The position numbers were made by a program, and so were the translations under genes. The notes under the pieces are model-generated. The model was not told the DNA's origin, did no database searches, and was given only the letters and a program-made list of their open reading frames with translations. 35,808 bases of DNA from a virus: the IMG/VR virus record IMGVR_UViG_3300025138_007237, positions 1 through 35,808 of that record; one strand, written 5' to 3'. Positions 14,971 to 35,808 of this stretch are shown here, piece by piece (position 1 is the stretch's first letter; every line of letters starts with the position of its first letter).

Positions 14971-14978
14971 TATTTATA
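14971..14978 (-). promoter_or_regulatory. T4-type late promoter, perfect TATAAATA
   Basis: TATAAATA on the minus strand lies 29 bases upstream of the ATG at 14941 and overlaps the last codon region of the 489-aa gene. It is an exact match to the T4 late promoter -10 element read by the phage sigma factor gp55. Confidence 0.7.
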
Positions 14979-16478: not shown

Positions 16479-18293
16479 TTACACGCTACTACTTAGGTTT
16501 TGATCAAATGTCCAGCTTCCGCTTGATGTGATAAACTGTTTCAAACTTCTTGATACACTAACAGATACTGAACCAGTTGCGTTGGTAAATCCAATATCTT
16601 GTAATACTGACTGATTTTGTGTTCCATTAGCATCAACAGCAATAAAGGATTTAGTCAATACTGCTGTTATATCAATACCTGTTACTGATGCACCTCCAAG
16701 TGTTGTACAGTGTATTCTAGCTGTAGTTCCGTTAGACACACCTGATGCTGGAACTAGATCATTAATAACTAATGCAATTTGAGAATCATTTAGTCCTGTA
16801 ATATCCATGCTAAAGGAAATAGCCGCGCCGGCAATTTGCTGGTCGACATATAATTTATTTGTAACATCTGCGTTAGCTGTAGGAGCGCCTACTCCTGTAA
16901 TTTTTTTACTATTACCAATAGTAATAGTATCAGCACTATTAATTGTTAGTCCTAGTGCTGAAGTTGTAATTGTTGCCGCATTAATATTTAAGTTGTCAAC
17001 TTGTAATGCACCCAATGTACCAATAGTAGTTAAACCAGTTGCAGTAGTTACCGTATTAGCTAATGTTGTTGCTGATAATAAGTCAGCACCATTAAGTTTA
17101 TACGCTTTTCCTGTTGGAATATCAATATGCTCAGATGATGTCCAGGCTTTATTTGCATTTATCCATGTAAACTTTTTGTCATTACCTGTAACTCTAACCA
17201 CTATTCCTGCATCGTTTACACCAGAATCGTTTAATAATGTACTATCATTCGTGATAGCAAGTTCTATTTGTTTATCCTCTACTCTTAGTGTTGAAACATC
17301 AATGCTTGCACTGGCACCTTCAACAATTAAATTGCCAGTTACACGCATATCGCCAGTAACGTCTAATGTATGCAACGGAGTATCTTGGAATATACCAATA
17401 CGCTTAGTTGATGCATCAATATGTAACGCATCAATAACCTGTGAGCCAGCCGCAGAGCTTGTAACTTTAATAATGTAATCATCATCAATTCTAGCATTTT
17501 CTGTAACAAAACTGTTACCGACAACTTTCATAATTTGGTTAGCATTTGCTCCAACTGTTATACCGTTTGAATTTAATACTTGTAACGCCCCAGTTGTTGT
17601 TCCATCTGCAACTGCTGATAAAAAGCTATCTGCACTAACTGATGTGCCATCTGCTTTAATTAAATTTAATGCTTTGTCTGCTACCCCCTGCAATGTAAAT
17701 CCTGTTGCAGAGTTTGTATCAATTACGTTAATACCTTTTTTAACATCTCCTGTAAATCCAGGAATAGCAGTACCAGGAGTAAATGTAATATTACTCATAA
17801 TTGCCATTAGTGTGCCACCAATATATAAATCAGCACATGTTCTAGTTCTACTTTGAACATCTAGTCTAGAAACTATCTCAAAACCTGACTTACCTTGAAT
17901 AGACGAATATAACGGTCCTGCTAATACCGGATTATCTGCTCCATCAAAAAAGTACATTTGGTCAGTATTATTATTAATCCATAAATCTCCAGCAACCATT
18001 GTAGGTTGTGAAGATTGTACAAATGGTCCTCCAACTGCCTTAAATTGTGTTCCATTATAAACTTTTAATCTAGCATCTGATGTATCCCACCACACTTGTC
18101 CTTGTATAGGATTTAACGGACTTGTTGAATTTGAAAAACTTTCTAATAGCTTTATATAATTTTCGTTTAAAAATTCTCCAAATCCTGAGTAGTTTCTTCC
18201 TACTAATGTAAGTGACGTTGTAGCTGTATCAATTGACCCATCTATCAAATCTACAAGCAATGTTCCGTCTGTTTTGTTTAATTTATAACTCAT
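16479..18293 (-). CDS. Tail fibre-like protein with shared N-terminal module, 604 aa
   Basis: The ATG at 18293 overlaps the collar gene stop by 4 bp (ATGA) and has GAGGAAG upstream. Residues about 1-130 repeat the fibre N-terminal module (LVGRNYSGFGEFLNENY, GQVWWDTSDARLKVYNGTQF, GDLWINNNTDQMYFFDG). The middle contains a shaft with LHTLDVTGDMRVTGNLIVEG (near 305-325), a phrase typical of phage fibre shafts, and LSATTLANTVTTATGLTTIG. The last 110 residues (SFSMDITGLNDSQIAL onwards) form a beta-rich, Cys-poor tip domain unlike the ends of its two paralogues. This shows a common base with exchangeable tips, a pattern expected for receptor-binding fibres. The receptor is unknown. Confidence 0.82.
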   Translation of the reverse strand: MSYKLNKTDGTLLVDLIDGSIDTATTSLTLVGRNYSGFGEFLNENYIKLLESFSNSTSPLNPIQGQVWWDTSDARLKVYNGTQFKAVGGPFVQSSQPTMVAGDLWINNNTDQMYFFDGADNPVLAGPLYSSIQGKSGFEIVSRLDVQSRTRTCADLYIGGTLMAIMSNITFTPGTAIPGFTGDVKKGINVIDTNSATGFTLQGVADKALNLIKADGTSVSADSFLSAVADGTTTGALQVLNSNGITVGANANQIMKVVGNSFVTENARIDDDYIIKVTSSAAGSQVIDALHIDASTKRIGIFQDTPLHTLDVTGDMRVTGNLIVEGASASIDVSTLRVEDKQIELAITNDSTLLNDSGVNDAGIVVRVTGNDKKFTWINANKAWTSSEHIDIPTGKAYKLNGADLLSATTLANTVTTATGLTTIGTLGALQVDNLNINAATITTSALGLTINSADTITIGNSKKITGVGAPTANADVTNKLYVDQQIAGAAISFSMDITGLNDSQIALVINDLVPASGVSNGTTARIHCTTLGGASVTGIDITAVLTKSFIAVDANGTQNQSVLQDIGFTNATGSVSVSVSRSLKQFITSSGSWTFDQNLSSSV

Positions 18294-20335
18294 GTTACTT
18301 CCTCACCAGCATAGATAATATAATTAACGGACATAAAAGGATTCATTGTATCTAATGCTTGTCCTGTTGTACCTGAAACTCCACCACTTGTAGAAACAGC
18401 TTGCCCTTGCCCTGATCCTGTTGGAGCATCAAAAACAATAGACGAAGCAGGCGACTCTGCACCTTTTGCCGCATCTAAAATTGCATAAAATTGCGTTCCT
18501 TCAACAACTAAATCATGTTCATGTTCAGGTAAATTATTAAGTCCTATAGTTACATTCTCAGTACCACCTGTATTACCAATTTCAGAACCTTTTAGTCCTG
18601 TAACTCTTCCAGCGGCACTACCGCCCATATTATCTAAACCAATTGGTCCTCTACCTCTTAAGTCAGGTAATGCAAATTTTAGAACTCCGCCGTCACTTAA
18701 TAAATTTGCTTGTTTGTAATCAAACCCAATTAATACAAATAAGTCCGGCCATTGTGATTGAAGTATTTCACTACCGTCACATAATAACCATCCTGGATAC
18801 TTTGCTGTATCTGGAACTGTTCTACCAGTATATGGCATTATGACACCTGGTGGATTAGTTGGTACACTTGCTAATAGAGCACCTCTACTTACCCTATAAA
18901 GGCCAGTTGTTCCAGTTGTTCTGTTTAATAAGAATTCGTCTTCTCTAACTGTATTTGGTGTACTTGTTTTATTACTAATAAATGCGTTTGAAACTGACGT
19001 TGTAAATACTTTTGTGCTTCCGCCTGTTTGACCATCAAATACTAATTGGTTAGCTACTACTTCTCCTGTTATTTGAAAGTTTGTACTACTTGCTAATTTA
19101 TCTGCACTACCTGCTCTACCACTAACTGTACCAGTTACATTTCCTAATAAATTACCATTAAACGTAGTTGCATATATTCCTAAGTATTTGTTAGCTGAGT
19201 TACCAATATTCCTCACGTTTGGTGAGTCTGGTGCTATATTTTGGGTAGTTAAAATTCCGTCAATATCAAATGATCCGCCTACATTTAAATTTCCTGCAAT
19301 TCCTGCGCCGCCTGCAACTACTAAAGCACCGTTACCAAAATTTGTACTAGATGTTGTTCCATCTACAAATAAGTTTCCGCTTAATTTAATATTACCTGTT
19401 ACGTCTAACTTTTCACTTGGAGCTGTGTTGCTTATACCAATATTAGTTGTTGAATCAATACGCATTGCTGTTTGTGTTGTACCAGCATTATTAACTCTGA
19501 TATCGATATTACTTCCACTAGTGTTATGTGTAATAACACCTGCTTCGCCCTCAACTTCAATAGCAAGTTGGTTACCTGTTCCTAATAATAGTCCTGAATC
19601 ATTTTTAATCTTAATTTGATGATTTGTTGTACTTACTGCATCGCCTCTTAAAAAGTTTACTGCCGCAACATTTGTGGTTCCTACTAGTAAATTTTCTGCA
19701 ACTGTTGATGGTCCTACAAATTTAGGAGCACCATCTCCTGTAATATTAGTAGTACTTAAATTAATACCCGGACTTATAGTAGTAAACCCGTTAATAGTTG
19801 CTTTAGGAGTAAAACTATCTGCTGAAATAATTGCTACTGGTTTTGCCGAAACTTCTACTTGTACTGTATTATATGTAACATTATCTTGACCTACAATTTC
19901 AACTGGTTGAGCACCTGTTGTAAGCCCTCCTGAAAACTCAGGACCTATTAGTACCCATCCTGATCCAGTAAATAAATATAATTGTTGATTATCAGTATCA
20001 ACCCACAGATCACCAACAACACTACTTGATGCCTCAGGCTGTGTTAATGCTTTCTTTAAACCACCCGATGCTACCCAGTTTGTTGCATCGTATACTTTTA
20101 ATTGTTCACTACCAGGAGTATTATCGTACCAAATTTGTCCTTCAATAGGGTTACTTGGAGCAGAATTCTTTGCAAAATTTTCTAATAAGTGTAAAAAGTT
20201 TTCGTTAATTGCAGTACCATACGCTGTAGTACTTCTTCCTGGAAAACTTAAACTAGTTTGGACATTTAAGGTATTATCCTCAACAGTAATGCTTCCTTTA
20301 TTTGATACATCTGTAAAATTAATAGTATATGGCAT
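18290..20335 (-). CDS. Tail fibre protein with phage tail collar domain, 681 aa
   Basis: The N-terminal 135 residues are the fibre module shared with the two genes downstream (INENFLHLLENF, GQIWYDNTPGSEQLKVYD, GDLWVDTDNQQLYLF). A shaft follows, with SEKLDVTGNIKLSGNLFVDG near 308-327 and repeated GNLNVGG-type strands. Residues about 495-600 match the phage tail collar domain: PPGVIMPYTG, YPGWLLCDGSEI, FALPDLRGRGPIG. The C-terminus has LPEHEHD (near 600) and ends MNPFMSVNYIIYAGEE, both hallmarks of collar-domain fibres such as T4 gp12-like proteins. The His pair in HEH is a possible metal site. It follows the 201-aa structural gene with a 3-bp gap and probably shares its late transcript. This is the most secure fibre assignment in the window. 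Confidence 0.9.
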   Translation of the reverse strand: MPYTINFTDVSNKGSITVEDNTLNVQTSLSFPGRSTTAYGTAINENFLHLLENFAKNSAPSNPIEGQIWYDNTPGSEQLKVYDATNWVASGGLKKALTQPEASSSVVGDLWVDTDNQQLYLFTGSGWVLIGPEFSGGLTTGAQPVEIVGQDNVTYNTVQVEVSAKPVAIISADSFTPKATINGFTTISPGINLSTTNITGDGAPKFVGPSTVAENLLVGTTNVAAVNFLRGDAVSTTNHQIKIKNDSGLLLGTGNQLAIEVEGEAGVITHNTSGSNIDIRVNNAGTTQTAMRIDSTTNIGISNTAPSEKLDVTGNIKLSGNLFVDGTTSSTNFGNGALVVAGGAGIAGNLNVGGSFDIDGILTTQNIAPDSPNVRNIGNSANKYLGIYATTFNGNLLGNVTGTVSGRAGSADKLASSTNFQITGEVVANQLVFDGQTGGSTKVFTTSVSNAFISNKTSTPNTVREDEFLLNRTTGTTGLYRVSRGALLASVPTNPPGVIMPYTGRTVPDTAKYPGWLLCDGSEILQSQWPDLFVLIGFDYKQANLLSDGGVLKFALPDLRGRGPIGLDNMGGSAAGRVTGLKGSEIGNTGGTENVTIGLNNLPEHEHDLVVEGTQFYAILDAAKGAESPASSIVFDAPTGSGQGQAVSTSGGVSGTTGQALDTMNPFMSVNYIIYAGEEVT

Positions 20336-20965: not shown

Positions 20966-20973
20966 TATTTATT
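20966..20973 (-). promoter_or_regulatory. T4-type late promoter variant, AATAAATA
   Basis: AATAAATA on the minus strand lies 21 bases upstream of the ATG at 20944 and overlaps the stop region of the giant gene. It matches NATAAATA. Placement at a third start in the virion gene region makes chance less likely, although the sequence is AT-rich. Confidence 0.5.
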
Positions 20974-23900
20974 TGACTAGCTCGGTTACTTTCGTTCTAA
21001 TAAACCTCGCAATGTCATTTTCTTGTCTACTTAGGCTAGTTCCAGGATCTGTCCAGAGTTTACCTTTTTTACGCACTATAATAATCTTCTGATTCTCTAA
21101 CGGAGCAGTAGTAAGTGTTAAAGTACTAGTAGTACCATCTATACTAAACTCTGCCACACTAGTTGCATCACCTTCCGGACTGTCTAAGTCAGTAGCCGGA
21201 TTAAAGATTGATATAGCGTTCTTCCTCATACGCTTACCTGCAACAAATACTTCAAATTCATTTATACTTTTTGGTATAAAGTCTAGTTCGTAAGCAGTTG
21301 ATGTTCCGTCTGCTGTAAGTACTTGTGTAAGTGTTTCATCCATATAAGGAATATTTTGTCCAATACTCTGTTCTGTTACTGAGGATCCTGCTGGATAGGT
21401 TGTTTTAACTCCTGTACCTAACGTTCCTCTACGTATTTGTCTTAAAGTATTATTTTGTTTCACAAAGTATTCAATTCTTTCTCCATCAATAAACACTACT
21501 CCTGGTATTTTTGACGTTTTGTTAGGCGTTGGCAATTGACTTGCATCTAATAAATGTATTTTTAGATCTGACCAGTTAAGAGCCTGTGCTAACATATACT
21601 TATTCGAATCGTCCATACGCTTATAGTGAGTTCGGTTTAACATATCTTTAAACTGTCTAAATCCAAACTTTTGTAATGTTGGAGGAGCCGTAAAATGTAT
21701 TAACTCAACTGTATCATTAACACTAATTGGTTTTGTTATTTTAATATGGTTTTTATCTTCAGTAACATAATAATCTATTACTGATGTTAGCTGTACTCCA
21801 TTTAATACTACCCATACATATTTTGAATTATTAACTGGTTTACGTAACTTCACAAATCCGTTAGTTAATAGTGTATATTCTTGGAAATCTACTGTACCTT
21901 CTGATATTGAAGTTCTAGTAATAACATTATACTTAATACGCTCTATATCTTGGATATCGTGATTACTAAATGTAATTACTTCAACTGTTGCATCAAGAGC
22001 TGGAGCATTATCAAAATAGATTACTCCGGGAGTTGAGATAAACTTAGTTGAACTATCTGGTCCTGCTTCGATACCTACATACCCAAATGCATATTCGCCG
22101 TCTACTACTAAAAATATATCAAGTACTTGTCCTGCTGTTGATACACTAGGTACCATGTTAACTATATTACTAGATGAATCCCATTTATATTGAATGTTCC
22201 TTACCAACTTAATGCCATCTAAATAAACTTCAATATCTTCACCTCTAATGGTGTTAAGTCCTAATTGCCAGTTTTGTAATTGATATTGCAAAGAGCTTGT
22301 TATAATGTGTCTATCACTATATCCTGAATTTAATATAACTCCGTTAACTTTAACTATTGTTTGATTTGCAACAGGTGTGCTTCCTATTGGTGCTGTAGCC
22401 AACGTATAAGTTTTTGTACTTCCATCTGCTGTAAATGTTTGCGATGCAACTTGACTGAAATTTGTTCCTGTTGCATAAAATAATCCATAATCAATAACTG
22501 CATCTAGTGCAGGTGCTGTGTTAAATCTAATACCTGCATAGCCTTTATCAACTCCATAACTATCGCCTGCGGAGAAAATAGTGACTGACTGTGCAACTCC
22601 GTTAATATTAACAAAGTTTGTCATATTAGCTTGCCATTCTACATTAGTAATAAACTCTACTGAACTTCCATCACCTGTAAACTTATTAATATCCAGGATC
22701 TTCTGTCCTGCTTCTCCCAAAACTATTATATTCAGTAGTTTTCCTGTTACAGGCGCTGTTGTAAATGTAACAGTATTAGTTGTATAATTTATAGTATATG
22801 AACTTGGTGAAACTTTAGTATTATCAAGTCTTACAAATACTGCATCAGCTGAATTAGGATGTCCTCCTAAACTAAATGTATCTTTAGTACCATCAGTAAA
22901 ATATACATCACTATAAATTGTACTACCGCCATCAACTGCACGATGTACTACTTTTAAATCCATAGTATCTAATATTTGCCCAGTAACTAACTCTTCCGGA
23001 CCTTTGCTAGTAGTCGGTGTAACAAACAGGTCACCATCTACTACTATTTCAGAAGCCGCTATACCCCTAGCTGTATCATATAAAGTGGTGCCGCCATCAA
23101 GTAGTGTATCATAAGATGTAACATCAGGTTTAAAACTACCGTCACTAGTTGTTTTTCTTATTATAAACGTATCATCATTATTTGCAATAATTCCTAAATC
23201 TTGTAAATTTAATTCAGTTTGACCTGCACCTGTAATACTAAGCATCTTAGCATTTGGATTTGTTGCTTCACTTGAATCATTATAATAAGGATCATCAATT
23301 CTTACATTATTTTTATAAACGTTATAAGTAACTCCCGTTTGTAAAGCCGGTGACCATGTTAGTGTTGATGTTGACCCGTCTAATTGGAATATTATATCTT
23401 CATATGTATTATCATAAGTGTCAAATGTTTCTGTAAAGAACGGATCAGTATCCCAACCTGCACTACCTTCAAACCCAAAACTCTTAATTTCAACTCCGCC
23501 GTAATCAATACCTTCCATTAACTGCGAAATATCTTTACCTATCATACCCGTAGTAGGATTATAAAGTAAATTAATTCTATCCTGTGCATCTAGTAAGTTT
23601 GCATCTTTACTATATGTAACAGTTATTGCCGCTCCTGCTTTAGGCGGCGTAGTAAAATTAATTTGACCAATTTCTCTGTCATATCCTTTAGTAACGTCTT
23701 TAATATTTGTAAATGTATATTCACTTCTTAGTAACTCAATACCTGTTACAACTATTGTTGTATTTGTATTTTTTCTATCCATTGGCCATTTTAAATTGTA
23801 TCTAAATTGAGTTCCGGTTCCTGTGAATGTCTCTGTTGTAGCAAGTGTGGTAATATGATAATTTCCGCTAACTCTATCAAACTTAAATTTAACTGTAGTA

Positions 23901-26900
23901 CCTCTAGCTGTACCGTTTCCTAGAATAGCGGTTGCTCTACCAATCGTTCCTGTATCACTTAATCCGCCATCAAGTATAACTGTAGGAGCACTTAGATAAC
24001 CTTTACCAGAAGTTAGTACTTCAATTTTACTTAATTTTCCGTTATTTAGATAAGCCTTTGCTGTTGCACCTGAGCCGCTGTTACCCTCAAATTTAATTAC
24101 CGGTGGCAGGTTGTATAAAGTTCCTGTATGCCCAATTTCAACACTCTTAATTTCATATCCTACGTTTTCAAACCAATGTTTATCTGGATAGGATGTTACA
24201 TCACGTTGTCCAAAAATTACTTCATTAGCTACCTTAGCTGTTGATGCTTCGATTCTTGTTGTTTCTAAACTATACTTAGGAGGTAAATCAAAGTCTGATA
24301 CTGTAGTATTAGTTGGATCTACTTTTTCATATGAACTTACATATTCTCTAACTTTTGTCTTATAAGGCTTAACTTCATTAATGTATGTTTGATAACTTTC
24401 TAAGTTATCATTTTTAAATGTAACCTTTTGTGCTAACTCTCCTAAATTATGCTGTGCTTTAACAAAACTTGATTTAAATGCCCAATCAATATTTGGTTGT
24501 TCGCTAAATGCATATCTAATACTTGATAAGAATAATTTATTATATTCAACTTCTAGATTGTCAACAAAGATCTTATCTCTTAACGTTTCTAAAATTATTC
24601 TAGATTCAGTTACAGGCTGTGCATCAAAAAATACGGTATCGTAATTATTACTATCGAATCCTACTTTACTTTTTCCTACGTTATATAATGTCTCAGTAAA
24701 CATAATAGTCGCATCTTGCTTACCCACTGTTTTATAATTTACTGTATAGTCGTCTGTAACTGTATTATTAATTTTTTCTAATAATAACCATCCACCTGAT
24801 CCGATATTTGAAATCTTTACTATATCTCCTACATTATTGTTTAATCCTGATAGCAAATAACTTGCTGAAATTAAATCTGAAACTTGTGTAAAACTATTAT
24901 ATCCAGGAGCATACCAGTCTACATAATTCCAATAAAGATTTGTATCATATCTCTGACTTACACTCCTTACCCACTTAGTTCCTATAAGCTCATATATGCT
25001 CCATTTATTAGATACATTTGAGTCTGAACTAACTAGTGCTGAGAAAGGTCTAACCGTAAGTATAGTATTTGCATCGTATCCAGTACCTGCATTAAGAATA
25101 TTTACTGTAGCAATTTGTCCAAGTTCGTTTAGTGTGCATTCTATTTGTGCATCTTCACCTATGCCAGTAACTGTAATTTTTGGACCTTTTCTAGTACCAC
25201 TAGTGTAGGTAGAATCTATATAACCTCTGCCGGCATCTGTTATTAATATTTGAGTTATTGAGCCGTCTATCACTGTAGGTGTTAGTGTAGGAGTCTTTTT
25301 ATTTCCTATTCCGACAAATGCTACATCTTCCATTGTATCAGCTACTACATCATATAGTTGTGTACTAGTACTTGGTGCTGGATCACTTTTAACTAAGTTA
25401 CTAATATCAAACTCGTCAACGATTATATTCTTTTTTAGTACATCATTAGCTCTTTCAATAACTTGCTTTAACGCTTCTGCTTTGTTTATAAACAATCCTT
25501 GTCTAGGTCTATCCTGTATTCCGTATTTTAATTTAACACTTAATGCAGGATCAGGTACTAACCTGTCTTTAACATCATATCCAATTAAACTATCAAACCA
25601 CTTACGTTCAATATCTCTATTCGGTTTACTATTTGCAACACCTTGTGCAATCATTTGATATTCATTATGTATATTTTGATTTTTATTAGTAGTTGTCCAA
25701 TAGCGTATATTTAAAGCTATATTCTTATCTTCCATTAAAGGTGCTACATTATATAATGCAAGTCTATCTTTAGACATAAGTGCGGCAAATTTATATCCCG
25801 AACCTGCAGGATCTTTAATAAGTTGTTGTACAGCACTTGCACTTAAATTTCTAAAATCTACATTTGGTGTAGTTTTCTTATTCAATGTCCAAAAATAATA
25901 TTTTGTTGATGTTGAATTAGAAATCTTATCCCAAACTAATTGCTGACTATAAGCGGTATCACCATATTTTGATAATCCACTTATTCCTTGTGCTATACCT
26001 TCCTCAGTATCTGCTAAAGTGTCCCATTCACTTGGAAGTACATCTGACTCAACCCATTCCCATATTGCTATATCTGTTCCTGGAAATACTTCTGACCAAA
26101 AATTAGTTTGATATGTTATATCATTTTGATAATAATTGTAATACTTTACTGCACTTAGATCCCACCATAATTTACCAACTGTATCGCTTGTCCATCCGCC
26201 ATATGTGTCTACTACAACACTTGCATCTCCTATATTATAGGATGCAGGATCATAATATGTTTTAAAACTTAATTCTTGTTCTGCCGGTCCTGGAATTTTT
26301 CCTTGTACAGGATCAATTAAATCAATATCAGAAACAAGTGTATTAGTTTTTGTATTATATATAAATGCACCTTTAATATTAGATAAGTCAACCTGATCAA
26401 GTGGACTTCTATGTGTAACCCATGCAGTAGTACCAAGAAGTTTTCTATAATCAACTACCATACCTTGGTACGTATTATAATCTGTCATATGAGGCATACT
26501 AGCATAAACATGATTATTGCTTACTAATATATTTTTACCAAACATCATAGAATCTGAATCATCAAACATAAATTCTTCAGCGTATACTAACGTTTCGTTA
26601 ATTCTTTCGTAAGTGTAAATGACTCCACTATCCATCATTACTGTTTTAAACTTAGTAAATTTATTATCAAAGTAAGTAGTGTCTGAGTCGTATGTTGTTG
26701 GTTTATCGATATTACCTTGTAAAGATGTAATAGCTAAAACATTTCCATCAAATCCTAAAGCAGTACCAAACTGTTCAGCGACTTCATTATTGTGGCTAGT
26801 TAGCGTTTGAGATAATGCAAATGTTCCTGCTGTTTGCTTATAGATATAAACTTTACCTTGAGTACTTGCAACTGAACTATTATAAGGCTCTCCTATAGCA

Positions 26901-29900
26901 ATCAAAGTGCCGTCTGCACTAATTGATATTGCATCGCCGTATCCAGTAAGTGTATCAGTACTTACATCAGTATACGGTGCAGTAATAGTCTGAGATATAG
27001 TAAATTGTCCGTTAACCTGTCGATAAACGTTTACTGCTCTAGATCCTGTACTGTCATTACCTTGGATTTTGGTACTAGTAATTAGTACTTGTCCTAATTT
27101 ATCCTGATCAAACTTTCTAGCAAAGTCTCTAATTCCGCCTTGTGGTGTATAAATCCCTTCTCCTATAACTAATTGTTCCGGAGTACTTGGTATATACCCA
27201 ACATGCGTAGTAGTACTGGATAGCTTAGTCCAATTTGCTATAGTAAATACTGATCCGCTAGCGATATTTTGCTTTGCACTATATAACTCTTTATTGTATA
27301 CTACTATTTCATTTATTTTATAAAAAGTAGATATATTAAACTCGCCTCTAAACAACGGATTAATATCTAACTGCCAATCGTAATCTACAAAGGTGTCTCC
27401 TATAGTATTTTCACGTCCGTGTTTTATAAAATGTATACTACCTGGATTAGACTCTGTATTATTACCATTTGAAGCAATAGCAACTCTATACAAAATATTA
27501 ACTCCGACACCAGTTTGTGTTATTTGTAATTCATCGCCAAACTTTTTAAAATTTTCTCTTTCTGGAATAACGTAGGAATTGTTATGTTCAAATTGATTAA
27601 CTTCGCTTATTGAATAAACAGAGATCATACCTTCTTGTGTTAGTCCACTTCCTGTAGCATTAGAAGTATTGCTTGCAACTAAGTTATTAACTTGTCCCCA
27701 GTCATTATTATTACTAGAAGGAATGTTAGCACCCCTAGCGATACCCTGTAACGTAATTTCATTATAGATCCAATATTCTTTGTCTACTAGTTCTGTTGTT
27801 GCAACGTTAGCAAAGTTTGTTGCTTCTGTAATAATAAATATTTTACCAACAACAGATGTACCTAAGGATACAGCTTTAACTTCTCCCATAGTTCTATCTG
27901 GTGAGCCCTGTCTAATAATATCAGTAGTTTGACTCCAGTCATCACCTAAGCTCCATGTTCCTGTAACATTTTTTACGTAAATCCTTACATCGTTAAACTG
28001 TCTTTTATAAAACACAACCTCAGCAGTAGCACCCGATGATGAATCTCTAACTATACTACCAATTGCAGGTTCAAATGGTAACTGATTAAGTGTACTAAAG
28101 TTATCAAATACAAAGTCGATATATCCGTCCCATACATCAGCAATAGTATGTTGCTTATTAAGTATATCAAATGTAAATGCTGTACTTGTTAAATCAACTT
28201 GGCCGCTTTGATTATCAACCTTAAGATAGAAGTCATCACCTGTAGTCTTTGTATCTGAAAATGCTTTAGGAACTCTTATTGCCCACTGATTTGAAGGTTG
28301 TACTGCAAAAACTTCTCCAGGATCGCCTTCATATGTAAAACTTTCAATAAATGATATCTGATCATTTAAACTAGTTTTTGTTCCAATAGCTTGTATATTA
28401 TCTTGAATATTAAAATAATAGTTTGGTGTTCTAGCAGAACCTTGCTTAATAACATCTACATATATTAAACTATGTCCTGGATCTACAAATATGTTTGAAC
28501 TATCTGCTGATGTTTCGTATGCAGGTGTTGTTATCATCCAATATCCACCAACATTGCTTGAAGGATTTACATAGTCTTCTGTATAATCTCCTACAGTAAT
28601 ATCTTCTATGAATAACTGTCCGGTTGATGCAAATGTTCCATTAACATCTTTAACATAAACTATCGCCGATCCGTCTGCATCGCCAACATAAGCTACTGTA
28701 CCACTTGCAACTGCACTGTTTACCGTTTGTCCTACACCTGGTAAGTTTTGGAACGTTGCAATATGTAAAACATTTTCAACTTTATGTACAATAGGATGAG
28801 TAGCACTTAAAAATGTACCTGTTATCTGTGGGAATTCTCCATCAAACGGTTCAACACTAACGTTACTTCCTTGAATGTTTATGCTACTGTAATTATTCCA
28901 GTTTAGTACAATACTGTCTCCTGCCTGAGAGCCTTCATATGCTTGTTTAGGAGCTCTAACTAATAAGTGTGTTGTATTTGCTTTACTATTAAGTTTATAG
29001 TTGCCTGTTTGTAGTAAGTTAAGCAACGAACTATCAGTGTCTGTTACTATATCAGCATACGAATCAAAAGTAGTATACGGAATAGACCCAACTGCACCGT
29101 CAATAACTGCTATTGCTTTAAACAAGTTAGGACCATATTTTATTATATCATTTTTATTATAATTACTACCCTCAACATATTCTCCTTTAAATGCTGTCTT
29201 TACATTACTTGCATGCGGAGATCCAATAATTAAATATTTTCCGTCTGGACTAAACGAAAGGCTTTCACCAAACTTTTGTGATGTAATTTCTGTGCTTCCA
29301 TCATACGTATCAACATAGGTTGAAGGAGCACTAATTGTTTGATCAAATATTAAATTATTTGCATCACTAGAACGTTTGTAAATATGTACTTCTCCGTTTC
29401 CTTTATCAGGAATACCAACAGCTAATAATGTATTAGATTCGTTTACGGCAATACTATGTCCAAAATTATGTTGGGTACTATCTAAAGCAAGACTACTTTT
29501 AAGTGTTTGGGCTTGAGAATACACAGGAGAATTTTTAATAACTTTCCATTTACCTGTATCATCGTCATCAACCCAAATAACTTCTTTTGATTGTAAATCT
29601 TTAGTGCTAAGATTATTAGCTTCAGATAATGTAGTAACTCTTTGTGTTGCAAACTTTGTTATAATTCCATTTAGGTTAGTAAGTGATGATAATTTTTCCC
29701 AATCAGCAAGTTCTGATGTTAATTCAATCTTATTATTAAAAACATCAGTAATAGTATAAAATGCTTCTACTGTTGTTGCTGTTGTATCAGTGCCTACAAT
29801 TTGATCTATATTGTAAAGACCTATAATATCATTAATAGCAAGATTAACTGTCCTATCACAGTTAAGTGTAATAGTTTGAGCTTCCTGTGTTATTGATTGA

Positions 29901-32900
29901 ACTATTATATTGCTATCAATATGTTTTAGCACATCCCATGTTAGATCATCTGTTGCTACCCAGACGTATGATCCCTTGTCTAAATCGCTAGTAGCAAATC
30001 TCATTATTCCTGCAGGGGTCGAAACTGCTCTGTTAACGTCTTCGCCGGTAACATATCCTACTGTTTTTACATATTCATCATTCAAAAATTTTGTTGGAAG
30101 TCTATTTGTTTCATAATCTTTTGGCTTTAAAAATACATCATAATGCGGAATTCTATATGTCAAATCAGTTGATGCTGTTGGTAATACACTTACCAATTCA
30201 ATAGGCTGAGGTTCTAGTCTAAATTTAGATTCGTCTAATTGGTATTCAATTTCTTCAAACCCGTCACTTGCACCATATTGTGCTGACTTAATTGCCCACT
30301 CTTCAAAAAAGTCAACGCTATCTTTATCAGCACTTGCTAAACTATCAAATAACTTATCAATCGCATTCCTTGTACCCTTATCCGCTATCATCCCCTGATA
30401 AAATTTGTATTGACTTACTTCATCGTTAATAATATTTTCTAGATACTGCCTTTTTTGATAACCAATTAGATGTTGTGCCATTTTTTGTTGATCAGCATCA
30501 AAATTATCTGAATCAAGATCGTAGAAATCAGCAAACTGATTAATTTTATAATCAAAGTTTGGCATTAACTTTGGATTAGGCTTTTGTTCTAGACGTGCCC
30601 ATTTTAACGGATCAAATATTTCTGCGCCAGGTACATCACTATTAGCAGTATAATAAAATTCTTTGTACTTAACTATATCGCCTATAGAGAAGTCAGTCCA
30701 TTGTGTCCAGTTTAGTATTATAGCAGAATCAAATATAAATCCAGGAATATTTAAACTACCGTCCCAACCTGCGGCAACATATCCAAGTACTTTAATTCTT
30801 TCTTGCCTATAACCTGTAGCAGGACTATATATTACATCTTTAAATACTGAGCTATTATCTAAAACTATAACATGTTCAAGTTGTACTGTTGGAAGAACTA
30901 TGTGATACAATCCATCAGCAGTATTTTTAAGTTGTACAACAAAATTTCCTGAATCTCTATTAAGCCTTGTTAATTCTTCAGTTATTTTTTCTCCACTAGC
31001 ATTTAAAATGCTGTAATCATAAAAGCTATCATACAAATTATCAATAACTGAATACTTTGAATTAAATTCTAACTTTGTAGCGGAAGGACTAACTGATAAT
31101 ACTGTTCCGGCTGCCCAGTTCTGTGTTGTAAAATATAAAAATTCTTTTGTACTTAGTTTCCAGTCTTCAACAATTTGTAATTCTTTATTATAGTAATCAA
31201 ACTTAAATCCTACAGACTCTAAGTATTTTCCGTAACCAAGTAAGAAGTCAACAACATCCTGAATACTTTCAAGTAGTGTACCATAAGGAACAACAGTTCC
31301 TTTATTATCAAAAGACTTTCTATATACTGCGGTAACACCGCCAGTAGTAGGAAGTTCAACTAACGACTGGAAATTATTAGCATCAAATGAAGTAGTACTA
31401 GTGTGATTCTGTTTGACTCTATAGAATTTATTACTATCTCTAACATTAGTACCTACTAAGTACCTTTGTCCTGATGCCCACTCTAAAAACGATTCTGATA
31501 TACCACCAACATTAATATTTGGGTCGCTTATAGTTTGTTGTGGCTCGTTATATGTAAATGTTGGATTTGTAGTATCATATCCTCTAACTATAAATCCTTT
31601 TGTAGCTTTTTCAATCATTACACCGCTATAAGATGCTACTGACAACGGAGAACTTTTATTAAGAAAAATATTATAATTTTCTGCTGGAAGAAATACATTT
31701 CCTTTATTAAAAGGAGTTCTACTATCTAATATAAATTTTAACTTATCTTTATCAGTAAAAGATCCTAATTTAATACCTAACTGATTTTTAATTAATTTAA
31801 AACTTTCTTTATATGTTTCAAAATTTGTTGTTGCTTCGCCGTTTAGGTAGTCAACAATATAGTTAATTAATCCTGATGTATGTGTTTCTGTTGTATCTGT
31901 TATTAATGTAGGATAAACTAGGCTTTTTGACGATAATGCTGTACCTGATGTTTTGTATATCCACTGATTTGATAACGACTTTATCATTCTAGATGTGTCA
32001 AATCCTAATCCCATTACTTTATGAGGTTGATTTAGTACCCAAGACTTAATTAAACTAAACGGATATTCACCACTTCTTCTCCAAGCAGTTTCTGTCGGAG
32101 CTTCGTCTCCAAATTTAAAACTTGATGAAATATTAGGTGATACATAACCTGAACTATATCCAGCTTCTTGCGGACTTAAAAGTTGTCCACTTTCATTAAC
32201 AGGAATATTTTTAAGTAGATCTTTCCTCTTATACTTCTTAATAATTTCTATTGGTACTCCTGGTGATTTAACTCTGCCTTCTTGTAAATCTTCCCATAGA
32301 ACTAAATTGTCGCTTGTATATGGTGCTGATCCATATACAGACTCCCACCAAGTGGGCATTATTGTAAAGCCTAGCATCTCCCAAGGATGTGTATGAGGTC
32401 TATCTGTATCATACGCATTTTTATAAACAGCTCTCCAAAATCCTGGTAAGTTTTTATTATCTCGGGTTGACATGCCTGTATAATTCCATGTAAAACTATT
32501 AGATCTATCATAAAAACTACTACTACTGGTGTAATCAACACCCCCTAAACTTTCTGTCCATTGTACAAAGTCACGCATCATTGCCGAGTCAATCTGTACT
32601 TTACTAAACTTTGTATCTCTTCTTATACTAGGAATATAGTCATGTATATCTAATCTTGTAGTATCATATGTTGCTTTAATATTATTAAATATTCTTTTTT
32701 CTAATTCTAGTAATAACTGATCTCTATAATCCATATATGCTATTGTTTTACTACCGTCATGACCTTGTATTACTCTAGTAGTAGTTTGATAAGTGCTATC
32801 ATCAATTATCTCTGGATAATATGTAGGATATAATCCTAACTTACTAGGAGTTGGTGGAATATAACTACCGTCTGTATTTTCGTATTCATATATTTCAATT

Positions 32901-35764
32901 AAATCATCTTTGGCTTTTGTTGCTGTTATAACAGCAAATCCGTCTGTATTAAATGTGTAATCTTTATTATGTATTAATTGAATACCATTTTTATATATTA
33001 ATACTGCCTCTGAAGATAAAGAACTTAAACTATGTGCCTTACTTAAAGAAAAGAAGTTATTTTCTGTATCATATACAGAAAACTCTAAACGTTTAAATCC
33101 TTCTGAGGGGATCATATCACTAAAATAGTAAGGGTCTGTGTTTATTTTATTTTTACTAACTTCTTTTAATATTAAATCAACATGTTGTTTTATAGGTCCA
33201 TCATAACCTAATGTATCAGCAATCTGTATAAAGGATCTTTTAAATTTTCTATACTCTTTTCTAGCATAGTCAATTGCCTTAATTACGTTTGCATCTTTAT
33301 CAGTAGCATGATATACAGTAGTGTTAGGAGACCCTGCATATTGTAAAAATTTTCTACCATATGAAGATATATTACCTAGGTTTGCAAGATTACTTGGTCC
33401 CGGAAACATTCCTACAAATCCCGGTAAGTCTTCAATCATAGTATTAACATGATCGTTAACTTCTCCTAAAGTAAAAGTACTAAGATTTTCATTTTCTGGA
33501 TTCTTTTCCATTGAGTGTGGAAATTCGTAATATCCGTTAGCATTTTTAACTGTATCACTATTAGTCTTAATTATCACACTACTATTTGCAGGAATTGCTT
33601 TTGAAAATCTAACCGTCTTAAATCCATCGACATCTACAAGTGTATAATCAAATCTCCATTTATTATTAACTTGAACTGCACATTTTAAATCTGTTAGTGT
33701 ACTACTGTTATTATATACATCAATATTAAAATCTGTTTGGGCTGTAATAACATCATACTGTCTAATAACTTTTGAAATCGTATTTGTACTTGCTTTTTTC
33801 CATCCGTTGCAATAAGTAAAACTATCAATGTCTGTATATATTCTATAAAATCCTACATCACTATTTTTTAATAACGGAGTGTTATTAACCTGATAACTAA
33901 AACTATCAGTTACTAGATTAAAATCAAAAGTTATATCACCAACGTTTTCTAAAGCTCTATAAGTAATTGGAAACCCTAATTCAACATCGTTCTTTCCTGT
34001 CCCTACTTTATAGCTAAAAATTTTATTACCTGCAAAATTGCTTACTGGATATGTTGTAGAATCAGTAAAGCTAATTCCGTTGTTATCAAATAATTCAAAT
34101 AATGGTTGTTGGTTTATTTTTGTTTTAAGCTGAGCAACTTTCCAAGTAGTTCCATCGTAGTAATATTGCTTACCGGCATTAGTTCCTTTAGTAATTAATG
34201 CAACTTGATTAGTAATTGGTAACGTATCAGTTTCTTCAACTAATGCAATCTGTGATACAGTTGAATTATGTTTGATCATTTTAACTTTATAAATTCTATC
34301 TTTTACAAGTAAGTCTGGATCAGCTGTAAACAAAATACGCATATTATTAGTAACATCAACACCATCAATGTTATATCCTTCTCTACCATTTATAGTAGAA
34401 AATACATCAGTAGTAAAAGTATCAATTAGATCTACATTTTCGGCCTTTGCTTCTGTACCAAATTGATGTAATTTTATTCCTGCATTAAATTCAATAATAG
34501 GACGTTTTGCTCTTGCACTTTGATCGATATTGAATATCTGCCCGTTAAGTGATGCTGTTTTTTCAAGAACTGATTTATGAAACCATCTATTATTTCTAGT
34601 CCAAGCATTTTTATCAGGAGAACTTCTATTAATAACAACATAATCTTTAGTAGCGGCATATGAACTAGCAGTGCCGTATGGCAAGTTATCAAAATTATTT
34701 GCATCAAATAATACTTCTACATCTGCTGAATATGTTTGAGGTATTACTAAATCAGTATTTTTTATTAATATAATTTTATCGCCAACACCTTCAACATACC
34801 AAGATCCTGTTGCATATTTTTCAGGAGTAACTGTACCTGTAAAATTTAGCTTCATACCATTCATTAATTCGGTACCATTTGCTGAGGTATATGTTTTTTT
34901 ACCTAGTATATCAGTCGCAACATCAATAGATGTATTTGATTCAATTTCAGCAATTCTAAATGTTCCGCCTGTGTTAACATCGGTTTCTGCTACATAGTAT
35001 AGTCTGTCAGGTGCATTAATAGGAACAGTAAATGTAACTACACCATTATCAACACCAGAATTAGTAATACCAGTTGAATATTCATTATCGCTTTCGATCA
35101 ATCTTGAAGTTCTAATTGTAAACGGAAGACCTGGTGTGCTTACATCAAATATATAAGTTTGGCCTCTATATAATTCTAATGTAGGATTCTGTGCTAGGTT
35201 GCCGTTGAATGCATAACCTTTATTACCAGCATTGTCAATACTATTTACAGTATATGTACTTGTTACTTCATCAGACTGTCCAAAAATTGAAATTGGTGCT
35301 GGTCCGCTTGGTAGCCAATAGTATTCACGGAAGTTAGTAAGTTTATCCCAGTCTACACCCGAGTCCCATGCATAATATTCTTGGCTATTAAATAAACTTT
35401 CGTTAGAAGTAGTACCTCCTAATATATCAAGCTGATTTCTAAAATCGTTATAGTCTTTATAAAATGAAACGTTATTTAATAAATCCTTAGAAACTAATGC
35501 AGGTTCTAATTGGTAATTAGTTCTAGTAGTAGTTACATCACCTAAGTAATTATCGCTAGGACTATATGCAGGTGCTGTCTTTCTACCAAAATATCCGTTT
35601 AATTTTTTAGCTGTTCCCGGAGAAGTAATTTGATCAATTGTAGATCCTAAAAACTTTTCATTTGTGTCTGATCGGAAATATTTTGGTAATAATTCTGACG
35701 TTCTTCTTTTACCTGGTTTTCCATTAAATGGAAGTGGATAGTCTTTTTGATCATCGTACGCCAT
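20969..35764 (-). CDS. Giant virion structural protein, 4,931 aa
   Basis: One uninterrupted frame of 14.8 kb encodes a protein of roughly 540 kDa. The ATG at 35764 shares one base with the upstream stop. Domains seen in order: a conserved N-terminus (ESLFNSQEYYAWDSGVDWD near 120); a cupredoxin-like beta domain lacking the usual metal ligands (about 190-271); mixed helical regions (about 900-1400); short aromatic modules resembling CBM5/12 carbohydrate-binding units near 1428, 1685, 2193 and 2807; seven FG-GAP-like strands between about 2100 and 3107; two GxGY-type beta segments (about 3502-3572 and 3876-3934); and a C-terminal chain of DGST-type beta repeats (about 3976-4931). No signal peptide or enzyme motif was recognised. 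Very long structural genes are known near the tail region of marine T4-like phages. It is probably a tail or baseplate appendage that binds glycans. Confidence 0.85.
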   Translation of the reverse strand: MAYDDQKDYPLPFNGKPGKRRTSELLPKYFRSDTNEKFLGSTIDQITSPGTAKKLNGYFGRKTAPAYSPSDNYLGDVTTTRTNYQLEPALVSKDLLNNVSFYKDYNDFRNQLDILGGTTSNESLFNSQEYYAWDSGVDWDKLTNFREYYWLPSGPAPISIFGQSDEVTSTYTVNSIDNAGNKGYAFNGNLAQNPTLELYRGQTYIFDVSTPGLPFTIRTSRLIESDNEYSTGITNSGVDNGVVTFTVPINAPDRLYYVAETDVNTGGTFRIAEIESNTSIDVATDILGKKTYTSANGTELMNGMKLNFTGTVTPEKYATGSWYVEGVGDKIILIKNTDLVIPQTYSADVEVLFDANNFDNLPYGTASSYAATKDYVVINRSSPDKNAWTRNNRWFHKSVLEKTASLNGQIFNIDQSARAKRPIIEFNAGIKLHQFGTEAKAENVDLIDTFTTDVFSTINGREGYNIDGVDVTNNMRILFTADPDLLVKDRIYKVKMIKHNSTVSQIALVEETDTLPITNQVALITKGTNAGKQYYYDGTTWKVAQLKTKINQQPLFELFDNNGISFTDSTTYPVSNFAGNKIFSYKVGTGKNDVELGFPITYRALENVGDITFDFNLVTDSFSYQVNNTPLLKNSDVGFYRIYTDIDSFTYCNGWKKASTNTISKVIRQYDVITAQTDFNIDVYNNSSTLTDLKCAVQVNNKWRFDYTLVDVDGFKTVRFSKAIPANSSVIIKTNSDTVKNANGYYEFPHSMEKNPENENLSTFTLGEVNDHVNTMIEDLPGFVGMFPGPSNLANLGNISSYGRKFLQYAGSPNTTVYHATDKDANVIKAIDYARKEYRKFKRSFIQIADTLGYDGPIKQHVDLILKEVSKNKINTDPYYFSDMIPSEGFKRLEFSVYDTENNFFSLSKAHSLSSLSSEAVLIYKNGIQLIHNKDYTFNTDGFAVITATKAKDDLIEIYEYENTDGSYIPPTPSKLGLYPTYYPEIIDDSTYQTTTRVIQGHDGSKTIAYMDYRDQLLLELEKRIFNNIKATYDTTRLDIHDYIPSIRRDTKFSKVQIDSAMMRDFVQWTESLGGVDYTSSSSFYDRSNSFTWNYTGMSTRDNKNLPGFWRAVYKNAYDTDRPHTHPWEMLGFTIMPTWWESVYGSAPYTSDNLVLWEDLQEGRVKSPGVPIEIIKKYKRKDLLKNIPVNESGQLLSPQEAGYSSGYVSPNISSSFKFGDEAPTETAWRRSGEYPFSLIKSWVLNQPHKVMGLGFDTSRMIKSLSNQWIYKTSGTALSSKSLVYPTLITDTTETHTSGLINYIVDYLNGEATTNFETYKESFKLIKNQLGIKLGSFTDKDKLKFILDSRTPFNKGNVFLPAENYNIFLNKSSPLSVASYSGVMIEKATKGFIVRGYDTTNPTFTYNEPQQTISDPNINVGGISESFLEWASGQRYLVGTNVRDSNKFYRVKQNHTSTTSFDANNFQSLVELPTTGGVTAVYRKSFDNKGTVVPYGTLLESIQDVVDFLLGYGKYLESVGFKFDYYNKELQIVEDWKLSTKEFLYFTTQNWAAGTVLSVSPSATKLEFNSKYSVIDNLYDSFYDYSILNASGEKITEELTRLNRDSGNFVVQLKNTADGLYHIVLPTVQLEHVIVLDNSSVFKDVIYSPATGYRQERIKVLGYVAAGWDGSLNIPGFIFDSAIILNWTQWTDFSIGDIVKYKEFYYTANSDVPGAEIFDPLKWARLEQKPNPKLMPNFDYKINQFADFYDLDSDNFDADQQKMAQHLIGYQKRQYLENIINDEVSQYKFYQGMIADKGTRNAIDKLFDSLASADKDSVDFFEEWAIKSAQYGASDGFEEIEYQLDESKFRLEPQPIELVSVLPTASTDLTYRIPHYDVFLKPKDYETNRLPTKFLNDEYVKTVGYVTGEDVNRAVSTPAGIMRFATSDLDKGSYVWVATDDLTWDVLKHIDSNIIVQSITQEAQTITLNCDRTVNLAINDIIGLYNIDQIVGTDTTATTVEAFYTITDVFNNKIELTSELADWEKLSSLTNLNGIITKFATQRVTTLSEANNLSTKDLQSKEVIWVDDDDTGKWKVIKNSPVYSQAQTLKSSLALDSTQHNFGHSIAVNESNTLLAVGIPDKGNGEVHIYKRSSDANNLIFDQTISAPSTYVDTYDGSTEITSQKFGESLSFSPDGKYLIIGSPHASNVKTAFKGEYVEGSNYNKNDIIKYGPNLFKAIAVIDGAVGSIPYTTFDSYADIVTDTDSSLLNLLQTGNYKLNSKANTTHLLVRAPKQAYEGSQAGDSIVLNWNNYSSINIQGSNVSVEPFDGEFPQITGTFLSATHPIVHKVENVLHIATFQNLPGVGQTVNSAVASGTVAYVGDADGSAIVYVKDVNGTFASTGQLFIEDITVGDYTEDYVNPSSNVGGYWMITTPAYETSADSSNIFVDPGHSLIYVDVIKQGSARTPNYYFNIQDNIQAIGTKTSLNDQISFIESFTYEGDPGEVFAVQPSNQWAIRVPKAFSDTKTTGDDFYLKVDNQSGQVDLTSTAFTFDILNKQHTIADVWDGYIDFVFDNFSTLNQLPFEPAIGSIVRDSSSGATAEVVFYKRQFNDVRIYVKNVTGTWSLGDDWSQTTDIIRQGSPDRTMGEVKAVSLGTSVVGKIFIITEATNFANVATTELVDKEYWIYNEITLQGIARGANIPSSNNNDWGQVNNLVASNTSNATGSGLTQEGMISVYSISEVNQFEHNNSYVIPERENFKKFGDELQITQTGVGVNILYRVAIASNGNNTESNPGSIHFIKHGRENTIGDTFVDYDWQLDINPLFRGEFNISTFYKINEIVVYNKELYSAKQNIASGSVFTIANWTKLSSTTTHVGYIPSTPEQLVIGEGIYTPQGGIRDFARKFDQDKLGQVLITSTKIQGNDSTGSRAVNVYRQVNGQFTISQTITAPYTDVSTDTLTGYGDAISISADGTLIAIGEPYNSSVASTQGKVYIYKQTAGTFALSQTLTSHNNEVAEQFGTALGFDGNVLAITSLQGNIDKPTTYDSDTTYFDNKFTKFKTVMMDSGVIYTYERINETLVYAEEFMFDDSDSMMFGKNILVSNNHVYASMPHMTDYNTYQGMVVDYRKLLGTTAWVTHRSPLDQVDLSNIKGAFIYNTKTNTLVSDIDLIDPVQGKIPGPAEQELSFKTYYDPASYNIGDASVVVDTYGGWTSDTVGKLWWDLSAVKYYNYYQNDITYQTNFWSEVFPGTDIAIWEWVESDVLPSEWDTLADTEEGIAQGISGLSKYGDTAYSQQLVWDKISNSTSTKYYFWTLNKKTTPNVDFRNLSASAVQQLIKDPAGSGYKFAALMSKDRLALYNVAPLMEDKNIALNIRYWTTTNKNQNIHNEYQMIAQGVANSKPNRDIERKWFDSLIGYDVKDRLVPDPALSVKLKYGIQDRPRQGLFINKAEALKQVIERANDVLKKNIIVDEFDISNLVKSDPAPSTSTQLYDVVADTMEDVAFVGIGNKKTPTLTPTVIDGSITQILITDAGRGYIDSTYTSGTRKGPKITVTGIGEDAQIECTLNELGQIATVNILNAGTGYDANTILTVRPFSALVSSDSNVSNKWSIYELIGTKWVRSVSQRYDTNLYWNYVDWYAPGYNSFTQVSDLISASYLLSGLNNNVGDIVKISNIGSGGWLLLEKINNTVTDDYTVNYKTVGKQDATIMFTETLYNVGKSKVGFDSNNYDTVFFDAQPVTESRIILETLRDKIFVDNLEVEYNKLFLSSIRYAFSEQPNIDWAFKSSFVKAQHNLGELAQKVTFKNDNLESYQTYINEVKPYKTKVREYVSSYEKVDPTNTTVSDFDLPPKYSLETTRIEASTAKVANEVIFGQRDVTSYPDKHWFENVGYEIKSVEIGHTGTLYNLPPVIKFEGNSGSGATAKAYLNNGKLSKIEVLTSGKGYLSAPTVILDGGLSDTGTIGRATAILGNGTARGTTVKFKFDRVSGNYHITTLATTETFTGTGTQFRYNLKWPMDRKNTNTTIVVTGIELLRSEYTFTNIKDVTKGYDREIGQINFTTPPKAGAAITVTYSKDANLLDAQDRINLLYNPTTGMIGKDISQLMEGIDYGGVEIKSFGFEGSAGWDTDPFFTETFDTYDNTYEDIIFQLDGSTSTLTWSPALQTGVTYNVYKNNVRIDDPYYNDSSEATNPNAKMLSITGAGQTELNLQDLGIIANNDDTFIIRKTTSDGSFKPDVTSYDTLLDGGTTLYDTARGIAASEIVVDGDLFVTPTTSKGPEELVTGQILDTMDLKVVHRAVDGGSTIYSDVYFTDGTKDTFSLGGHPNSADAVFVRLDNTKVSPSSYTINYTTNTVTFTTAPVTGKLLNIIVLGEAGQKILDINKFTGDGSSVEFITNVEWQANMTNFVNINGVAQSVTIFSAGDSYGVDKGYAGIRFNTAPALDAVIDYGLFYATGTNFSQVASQTFTADGSTKTYTLATAPIGSTPVANQTIVKVNGVILNSGYSDRHIITSSLQYQLQNWQLGLNTIRGEDIEVYLDGIKLVRNIQYKWDSSSNIVNMVPSVSTAGQVLDIFLVVDGEYAFGYVGIEAGPDSSTKFISTPGVIYFDNAPALDATVEVITFSNHDIQDIERIKYNVITRTSISEGTVDFQEYTLLTNGFVKLRKPVNNSKYVWVVLNGVQLTSVIDYYVTEDKNHIKITKPISVNDTVELIHFTAPPTLQKFGFRQFKDMLNRTHYKRMDDSNKYMLAQALNWSDLKIHLLDASQLPTPNKTSKIPGVVFIDGERIEYFVKQNNTLRQIRRGTLGTGVKTTYPAGSSVTEQSIGQNIPYMDETLTQVLTADGTSTAYELDFIPKSINEFEVFVAGKRMRKNAISIFNPATDLDSPEGDATSVAEFSIDGTTSTLTLTTAPLENQKIIIVRKKGKLWTDPGTSLSRQENDIARFIRTKVTELVK

Positions 35765-35808
35765 TAGTAGCCATACCCTCCGCCTGAGCTACCTGAGCTA
35801 CCTGAGCT
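35764..35808 (-). CDS. C-terminal end of an upstream gene, Gly/Ser-rich
   Basis: The last 14 codons and a TAA stop are visible: SSGSSGSSGGGYGY. The stop shares one base with the ATG of the giant gene, so the two are probably co-transcribed and translationally coupled. Gly/Ser-rich tails are common in phage structural proteins, but the rest of the protein lies outside the window and its function is not known. Confidence 0.7.
   Translation of the reverse strand, partial: SSGSSGSSGGGYGY
35783..35808. repeat. 9-bp tandem repeat coding Ser-Ser-Gly
   Basis: The unit acctgagct occurs twice in full (35791-35799 and 35800-35808), preceded by a partial copy, and encodes SSG units at the end of the off-window gene. 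It may continue beyond the edge. Such repeats change copy number easily by slippage. Confidence 0.75.

Follow-up and report, generated by a model that had tools for sequence, protein, structure and literature searches.

A 4,931-residue viral protein encoded directly after a gp6-like gene belongs to a known virion protein family and is a candidate for the gp7 place in the baseplate wedge of jumbo phages

What does a virus gain from a single open reading frame that fills a large part of its sequenced DNA? This question is raised by IMG/VR record IMGVR_UViG_3300025138_007237, whose whole stretch of 35,808 nucleotides is called the window here. The original prediction described an uninterrupted frame of 4,931 residues covering about 40% of the window, and proposed, from the high cost of such a protein, a central role in adsorption or tail architecture. 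The frame was located on the minus strand (the prediction had given no strand), it begins with ATG, and its share of the window is 41.3%. The protein had also been called larger than any T4 protein, which agrees with the portion of PMC3004832 consulted, where gp34 ranks first in size among the T4 proteins and gp7 next.

20969..35764, minus strand: giant ORF, 4,931 aa, PHROG 10938 virion structural protein (ORF list, profile match)

Judged by base composition, a run of 4,931 codons would lack a stop with a probability of about 10^-186, and in the five remaining reading frames the longest stop-free runs span 46 to 134 codons. The complete length is kept in 52 contigs, and dN/dS against two relatives was 0.105 and 0.117 for the whole gene and stayed within 0.05-0.13 in each sub-region. 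The giant gene is real and conserved, and purifying selection acts on it (dN/dS about 0.11); it is ordinary in kind, and useful for the role that it suggests. One close relative carries an in-frame TAG in the propeller region (L006:18930-19180), which divides its giant ORF into parts of 2,995 and 1,889 aa, and the source of this stop may be a sequencing error, decay or recoding.

The protein family is already known and not new. Across the conserved core, the giant matched the profile of PHROG 10938, which is represented in isolated viruses, with 1025.6 bits (E reported as 0). When the two halves of the giant were searched against translated phage genomes, 73 and 57 records were returned, all below 60% identity and chiefly from jumbo phages, and a protein search of viral contigs gave 75 distinct related loci, 52 of which have complete ORFs (3,676-5,953 residues; completeness limit 3,000 aa). 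The relative with the in-frame stop was left out of this complete set because its longest ORF, 2,995 aa, falls under the limit. The main alignment contained 43 of 61 giants (the window, eight isolates and 52 contigs) after thinning by shared 5-mers, while the alignments used for structure prediction contained 35 giants (the window and 34 contigs) and, in the second, 33. The isolate members include RaK2 ORF070w, CBB_236, PBECO4 gp538, PA5oct gp355, Atu_ph07 gp180, SCTP-2 gp140, Phosso 294 and AP-J-162 gp58, and the homologues measure 3,326 aa in RaK2, 3,333 in PBECO4, 3,340 in CBB, 3,771 in Vibrio 2.275, 3,807 in SCTP-2, 3,857 in PA5oct, 4,449 in Atu_ph07 and 4,555 in Phosso. They resemble the window protein in being homologous over both cores and, except in SCTP-2, in having the same gene order; the window protein is longer (4,931 versus 3,326-4,555 aa), its C-terminal part is longer, and the propeller region is largely missing from the isolates. 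A search of a viral structure library returned the giant's own family. T4-type capsid Gp23 was found on seven of nine giant-bearing contigs tested, two contigs being 372 and 453 kb long. Within the open-licence PMC text searched on the giant and its relatives, we found no function assigned to it, and gp070 is absent from the searched text of two RaK2 papers; very large phage proteins of up to 7,694 aa, some of them tentatively structural, have been noted before (PMC7162821, in the part consulted).

In relatives, the members of this family are virion proteins. CsCl-purified CBB particles yielded 21 unique peptides of CBB_236 with 7.72% coverage (PMC5259590, as given in Table 4); this protein is gp236 in the CBB record and adjoins the gp237 wedge protein. 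The record of PA5oct gp355 bears the note ESI-MS/MS. In Table 1 of PMC7247149, phAPEC6 gp245 (381.88 kDa, 17 peptides) stands beside the gp244 baseplate wedge, and gp245/gp244 probably match PBECO4 gp538/gp537, judging from size and gene order rather than from compared sequences. Coverage of about 8%, in CBB and in phAPEC6, is compatible with a full-length protein as well as with processed fragments. AP-J-162 gp58 (4,455 aa) is listed as "Structural protein" after gp57, "Baseplate wedge protein", in the printed table of PMC11242549. Absence from particles had been named as the observation that would speak against the original prediction, and this point is largely answered for the family, because virion mass spectrometry lists the CBB and PA5oct proteins.

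The genes on either side of the giant are the following.

35764..35808, minus strand: last part of a gp6-like baseplate wedge gene upstream of the giant, ending GGGYGY stop (identity from contig L004)
20339..20956, minus strand: conserved 205-aa protein, PHROG 11259, after the giant (profile match)
18290..20335, minus strand: tail-fibre-like paralogue 1, 681 aa (sequence comparison)
16479..18293, minus strand: tail-fibre-like paralogue 2, 604 aa (sequence comparison)
14974..16443, minus strand: tail-fibre-like paralogue 3, 489 aa (sequence comparison)

The stop of the upstream gene shares one base with the ATG of the giant. On L004, a 63.6-kb contig with a 100% identical giant, this gene is complete, encodes 1,192 aa and is preceded by gp25-like and hub/lysozyme gp5-like genes; its product matches PHROG 10646 and PHROG 219, the latter being matched by T4 gp6 itself. 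The L004 gp6-like protein (L004:6423-10001) is long compared with the 660 residues of T4 gp6, and ends in a long serine/glycine tail with GGGYGY as its last residues. The gene order at giant loci is hub/lysozyme gp5-like, gp25-like, gp6-like, giant, 205-aa protein and fibre-like genes, and a gp6-like match ends at most 400 nt upstream of the giant in 51 of the 52 complete loci. The remaining locus was not named in the output; L060, a relative with a late ORF start, would fit it. The adjacency is broken in the Salicola phage SCTP-2, in which about 90 kb separate the gp6 match and the giant. In T4 the gene order is 53-5-6-7-8-9-10, with gene 7 directly after gene 6. The three tail-fibre-like paralogues have about 300 N-terminal residues in common, at 31-35% identity.

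Within the giant, residues 1-2000 and 3100-3900 are conserved and residues 2000-3100 variable in the 43-member alignment. The standard deviation of region length among 35 members was 17 for residues 1640-2050, 43 for 3110-3960, 81 for 420-1640, 256 for 3960-4931 and 333 for 2050-3110 (63 to 1,375 residues). The parts that we distinguish are listed below.

34760..35242, minus strand: residues 175-335, small module common to many cyanophage tail-fibre and baseplate genes
30845..34504, minus strand: residues 421-1640, conserved N-terminal core, with a tailspike-docking-like module at 889-963
31340..31492, minus strand: residues 1425-1475, CBM5/12-like chitin-binding module 1 (Pfam, own HMM, model)
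30575..30721, minus strand: residues 1682-1730, CBM5/12-like module 2 (self-comparison, own HMM, model)
30155..30577, minus strand: residues 1730-1870, near-invariant FYxGxIxxKGT segment, within the least length-variable part, with a putative gp6-contact role
26435..29614, minus strand: residues 2051-3110, beta-propeller with FG-GAP-like blades (self-comparison, own HMM)
27206..27346, minus strand: residues 2807-2853, CBM5/12-like module 3, inside the propeller region (own HMM)
23885..26434, minus strand: residues 3111-3960, second conserved core, helical EYNxLF...VDWxFKTSFVKA...EVKPYxTKIRE segment
25040..25258, minus strand: residues 3503-3575, GxGY double-hairpin domain copy 1 (self-comparison, own HMM)
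23957..24157, minus strand: residues 3870-3936, GxGY double-hairpin domain copy 2, recurring in cyanophage giants
20972..23884, minus strand: residues 3961-4931, array of related beta modules with DGST-type starts (about seven by our reading)

Profile self-comparison found related blades in residues 2050-3110, two GxGY domains, two chitin-binding-like modules and many C-terminal modules. Among windows picked after this self-comparison, the pairs above 70% probability were 12 of 12 for blades and 15 of 19 for C-terminal modules; in the control pairs they were 2 of 78 (core-core), 0 of 84 (core-blade), 0 of 42 (blade-C-terminal) and 15 of 98 (core-C-terminal), the last figure arising because C-terminal-type modules also occur near residues 680-1004. 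The propeller of the original prediction was thus recovered as homologous blades, both by profile self-comparison and by our own HMM, which placed them at about residues 2095, 2156, 2902, 2931 and, weakly, 3068; the Pfam FG-GAP match is below its cut-off. An insertion of about 500 residues divides the propeller, which is nearly absent in the shortest relatives. The predicted carbohydrate-binding-like repeats were also present, as three copies by our own HMM, with a possible chitin-binding fold in the model and a Pfam CBM_5_12 match (E 2.7e-4, 21.4 bits) under the curated cut-off of 26.2. As a literal motif, GxGY is not above chance, because four occurrences compare with a mean of 1.35 and a maximum of six in shuffled sequences, so that part of the prediction stands only as the two true domain copies. 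Literal DGST occurs three times versus 0.23 in shuffles, as proposed, and by our reading of the sequence these sites mostly open diverged C-terminal domains. Giant residues 1-589 match 233 records. The cyanophage matches of the first search were rejected as core homologues, for they match the small module at about 175-335 only, and Bellamy gp29 (481 aa, annotated as baseplate wedge initiator) was rejected as a relative, having matched through the same module.

AlphaFold models were obtained for residues 700-1899 (mean pLDDT 74.9, pTM 0.64) and 3080-4279 (mean pLDDT 72.1, pTM 0.41). By Foldseek, neither 1,200-residue model had a PDB match at E <= 0.001, and the conserved core beyond the small modules gave no clear PDB fold match. 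In the first module of the C-terminal array (residues 3968-4056), residues 3968-4055 matched the docking (XD) domain of CBA120 TSP4 (7rfv, Z 9.6, 64 aligned, rmsd 1.6 A), and also T5 (Z 9.5), the N-terminus of T7 gp17 (Z 7.8) and a T4 baseplate chain (Z 6.7). Two further matches lie below the Z 8 guide: residues 889-963 with the TSP4 XD type (7rfo, Z 6.9, 77 aligned, rmsd 2.4), and residues 1425-1471 with chitin-binding 3wx7 (Z 7.1, 45 residues, 1.3 A). The latter small fold is also present in phage structural entries, namely the Milano baseplate (8fqc) and the T4 head (7vrt and 1yue). XD domains mediate fibre branching in CBA120, where two of them bind other tailspikes, and five have been proposed for fibre branching in RaK2 gp528 (PMC10253068, in the part consulted). 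CBA120 TSP4 is a separate tailspike protein, whereas the docking-like modules of the window protein lie within one giant chain.

In the T4 baseplate, gp7 occurs in six copies as a monomeric wedge protein with several domains; jointly with gp8 it forms a platform for the dimer of the gp6 N-termini, and one of its domains is bound by gp9 (PMC3004832, same portion). T4 gp6 and gp7 make a 2:1 trimer, (gp6)2-gp7, resembling TssF-TssG (PMC6300606, in the part consulted). The giant resembles gp7 in its place after gene 6, in being large and multi-domain, and weakly in the KGT motif; it differs in that gp7 has 1,032 aa and shows no significant sequence match with it, nor a significant fold match with the two models. 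We scanned 12 records, comprising eight isolates, two large contigs, T4 and the cyanophage Syn10. The gp6 profile (PHROG 219) was found in all 12, including the ten jumbo records, and the gp7 profile (PHROG 964) in T4 and Syn10 only (0/10 jumbo records); giant segment 1730-1870 had the complementary distribution, in 10/10 jumbo records and in neither T4 nor Syn10. Apart from one poor match, T4 gp8 was likewise undetected in the jumbo records, and therefore the absence of gp7 may reflect general divergence.

The cyanophages offer a comparison at the same position. In Syn10, CPUG_00079 (PHROG 701; L093:21057-39287, minus strand) has 6,076 aa and stands after gp25 and gp6. Among 80 cyanophage-type loci, 24 have complete largest ORFs, of 3,151-6,706 aa, and a profile was built from 18 representatives including Syn10. 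Residues 729-760 of T4 gp7 align to this profile with 92.6% probability. When ten single T4 proteins were compared with the cyanophage giant, gp7 reached 63.2% and the other nine at most 1.0%, with 0.1% for a reversed gp7 profile; PHROG 964 matched the Syn10 giant with E 1.2e-4 and, in a second scan, 9.0e-6. Judged from its sequence, the Syn10 protein looks like an inflated gp7. The cyanophage giants share with the window giant the place after gp6 and the repeated GxGY domains, which match those of the window protein at 97.2%, but differ in having a recognisable T4 gp7 motif. Beyond the GxGY domains, no further related region appeared among the hhalign alignments listed.

T4 gp7 contains the sequence FYSTKGI, which reads FYSTKGT in the Syn10 giant; the window family has its nearly invariant FYxGxIxxKGT motif around residue 1796, in a segment with six invariant residues in 43 members, all 43 of which matched PHROG 10938 here. 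Direct gp7 homology by whole profile was rejected (hhalign probability 0.2%). The KGT windows of the giant reached 0.4-6% probability against the gp7-core, cyanophage-core and combined profiles. With the combined gp7/cyanophage profile, the top four of 137 giant windows all hold KGT, aligned KGT on KGT at 1-3% probability, and the cyanophage-core profile also ranked KGT windows first, below threshold; the best window with the gp7-only core profile lay elsewhere, at 2281. Because the KGT matches are sub-threshold and not at the top with gp7 alone, the giant was not filed as a member of the gp7 family, and its homology to gp7 by sequence or fold is not proven. Searches of the KGT segment against Pfam, PHROGs and PDB sequences gave no gp7, TssG or P2 gpI match, and TssG, P2 gpI and Mu gp48 were not among the 12 Pfam families obtained at E <= 10 with 43 segment members. 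Beyond PHROG 10938, the segment matched weakly the unnamed PHROGs 23528 and 13743; we regard a Pfam Phage_T7_Capsid match, seen in 10 of 43 members with a best E of 0.0073, as chance. gp7 was not recognised among the fold-search rows, which derive from models spanning 2,400 of 4,931 residues with pLDDT below 50 for residues 1733-1837 within the segment. Strong conservation without a stable fold of its own would fit a contact that folds on its partner, and a poor model would explain it equally well.

Taking these data together, we think that the giant is probably a baseplate protein of a contractile-tailed jumbo phage of the T4 superfamily, filling the place of gp7 in the wedge. It would be made straight after gp6 from overlapping genes, and gp6 would be the assembly partner of its two cores (about residues 1-2050 and 3110-3960), with the motif around residue 1796 as the probable contact. 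The exchangeable modules, namely the chitin-binding-like modules, the split propeller, the GxGY pairs and the C-terminal docking-like array, would form the baseplate periphery and may offer attachment sites for tail fibres, for example the three downstream paralogues. Any copy number assigned to the giant in the baseplate would be presumptive. A different arrangement, which we hold to be unlikely but still the strongest competitor, is that the giant is a baseplate/tail-fibre protein forming an extra peripheral platform around the wedge, while a small unrecognised protein serves as the gp7 equivalent. The lack of significant gp7 homology, the fibre or docking type of most fold-matched modules and the 205-aa protein adjoining the giant would all suit such a platform; its direct position after gp6 with an overlapping start and the conservation of the KGT core in every jumbo record argue for the wedge, as does the failure to find an alternative gp7, although that search may be too weak.

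The role proposed in the original prediction gains on its tail-architecture side, from the position in the baseplate operon, the virion homologues and the conservation in every jumbo record tested. Its adsorption side does not gain, since the chitin-binding-like modules and the propeller may have a structural function. A protein mainly of adsorption, with these CBM5/12-like modules and the propeller binding host surface glycans directly, seems improbable to us: baseplate and capsid entries of phages also contain the small chitin-binding-like fold, only 63 residues of the propeller region are left in the shortest aligned member while the cores persist, and three separate fibre genes lie downstream. 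Least credible of all is a head or internal protein, for which the PHROG 10938 category, head and packaging, would speak; the nearest neighbours of known role are baseplate and tail genes, and in our view virion proteins without an assignment seem to be put in that category by default. The argument from high cost is also weak, because giants of 5,000-6,700 residues are usual in the same slot of cyanophages of about 175 kb.

With the giant placed in the wedge, a broader and more doubtful proposal can be made, to which we incline somewhat less than to its opposite: within the T4 superfamily the product of the gene-7 slot may have grown repeatedly into a giant hub, in cyanophages mostly of 5,000-6,700 residues and with a gp7 motif that can still be read, in jumbo phages of 3,300-6,000 residues and too diverged to be recognised except for the retained FYxG...KGT core. 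Each such protein would act as a scaffold made of one chain, and its docking modules would determine the number of fibre types on a virion. In the eight of 52 loci that could be scored, the C-terminal array varied from 805 to 1,514 residues (from the boundary used) while the fibre-type ORFs were constantly three, so a relation of one module per fibre found no support in these loci. Many jumbo phages have a member of this family among their largest proteins, and the records call these proteins no more than structural or hypothetical; placement in the baseplate wedge would give them a concrete, testable role, suggests that the head and packaging label is wrong, and would be one way to explain the attachment of complex fibre systems by large phages. 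Should the giant indeed occupy the gp7 slot, the jumbo giants would be united with the cyanophage giants.

The rest of the window carries other genes. At its end, a 322-aa protein (336-1304, minus strand) has a weak, below-cut-off Pfam SPARK match, which is probably chance. Positions 1961-10438 on the minus strand encode six tandem paralogous radical-SAM proteins, each with CxxxCxxC, at 20-37% pairwise identity among the reported pairs. The usual order is a radical SAM domain first with SPASM after it; this is reversed in the window, where SPASM lies N-terminal to the radical SAM domain in two of three paralogues scanned with Pfam. The two proteins flanking the set (10435-11352 and 1288-1968, minus strand) are mutual paralogues (33% identity, E 1.6e-30) and gave no family matches. 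Matches to one radical-SAM paralogue were found in 13 of 20 related contigs, with up to seven per contig. In Atu_ph07 (L085:12-1070) and Phosso (L090:1335-2396), a radical-SAM gene lies a few genes downstream of the giant, possibly a smaller version of the cluster in the window.
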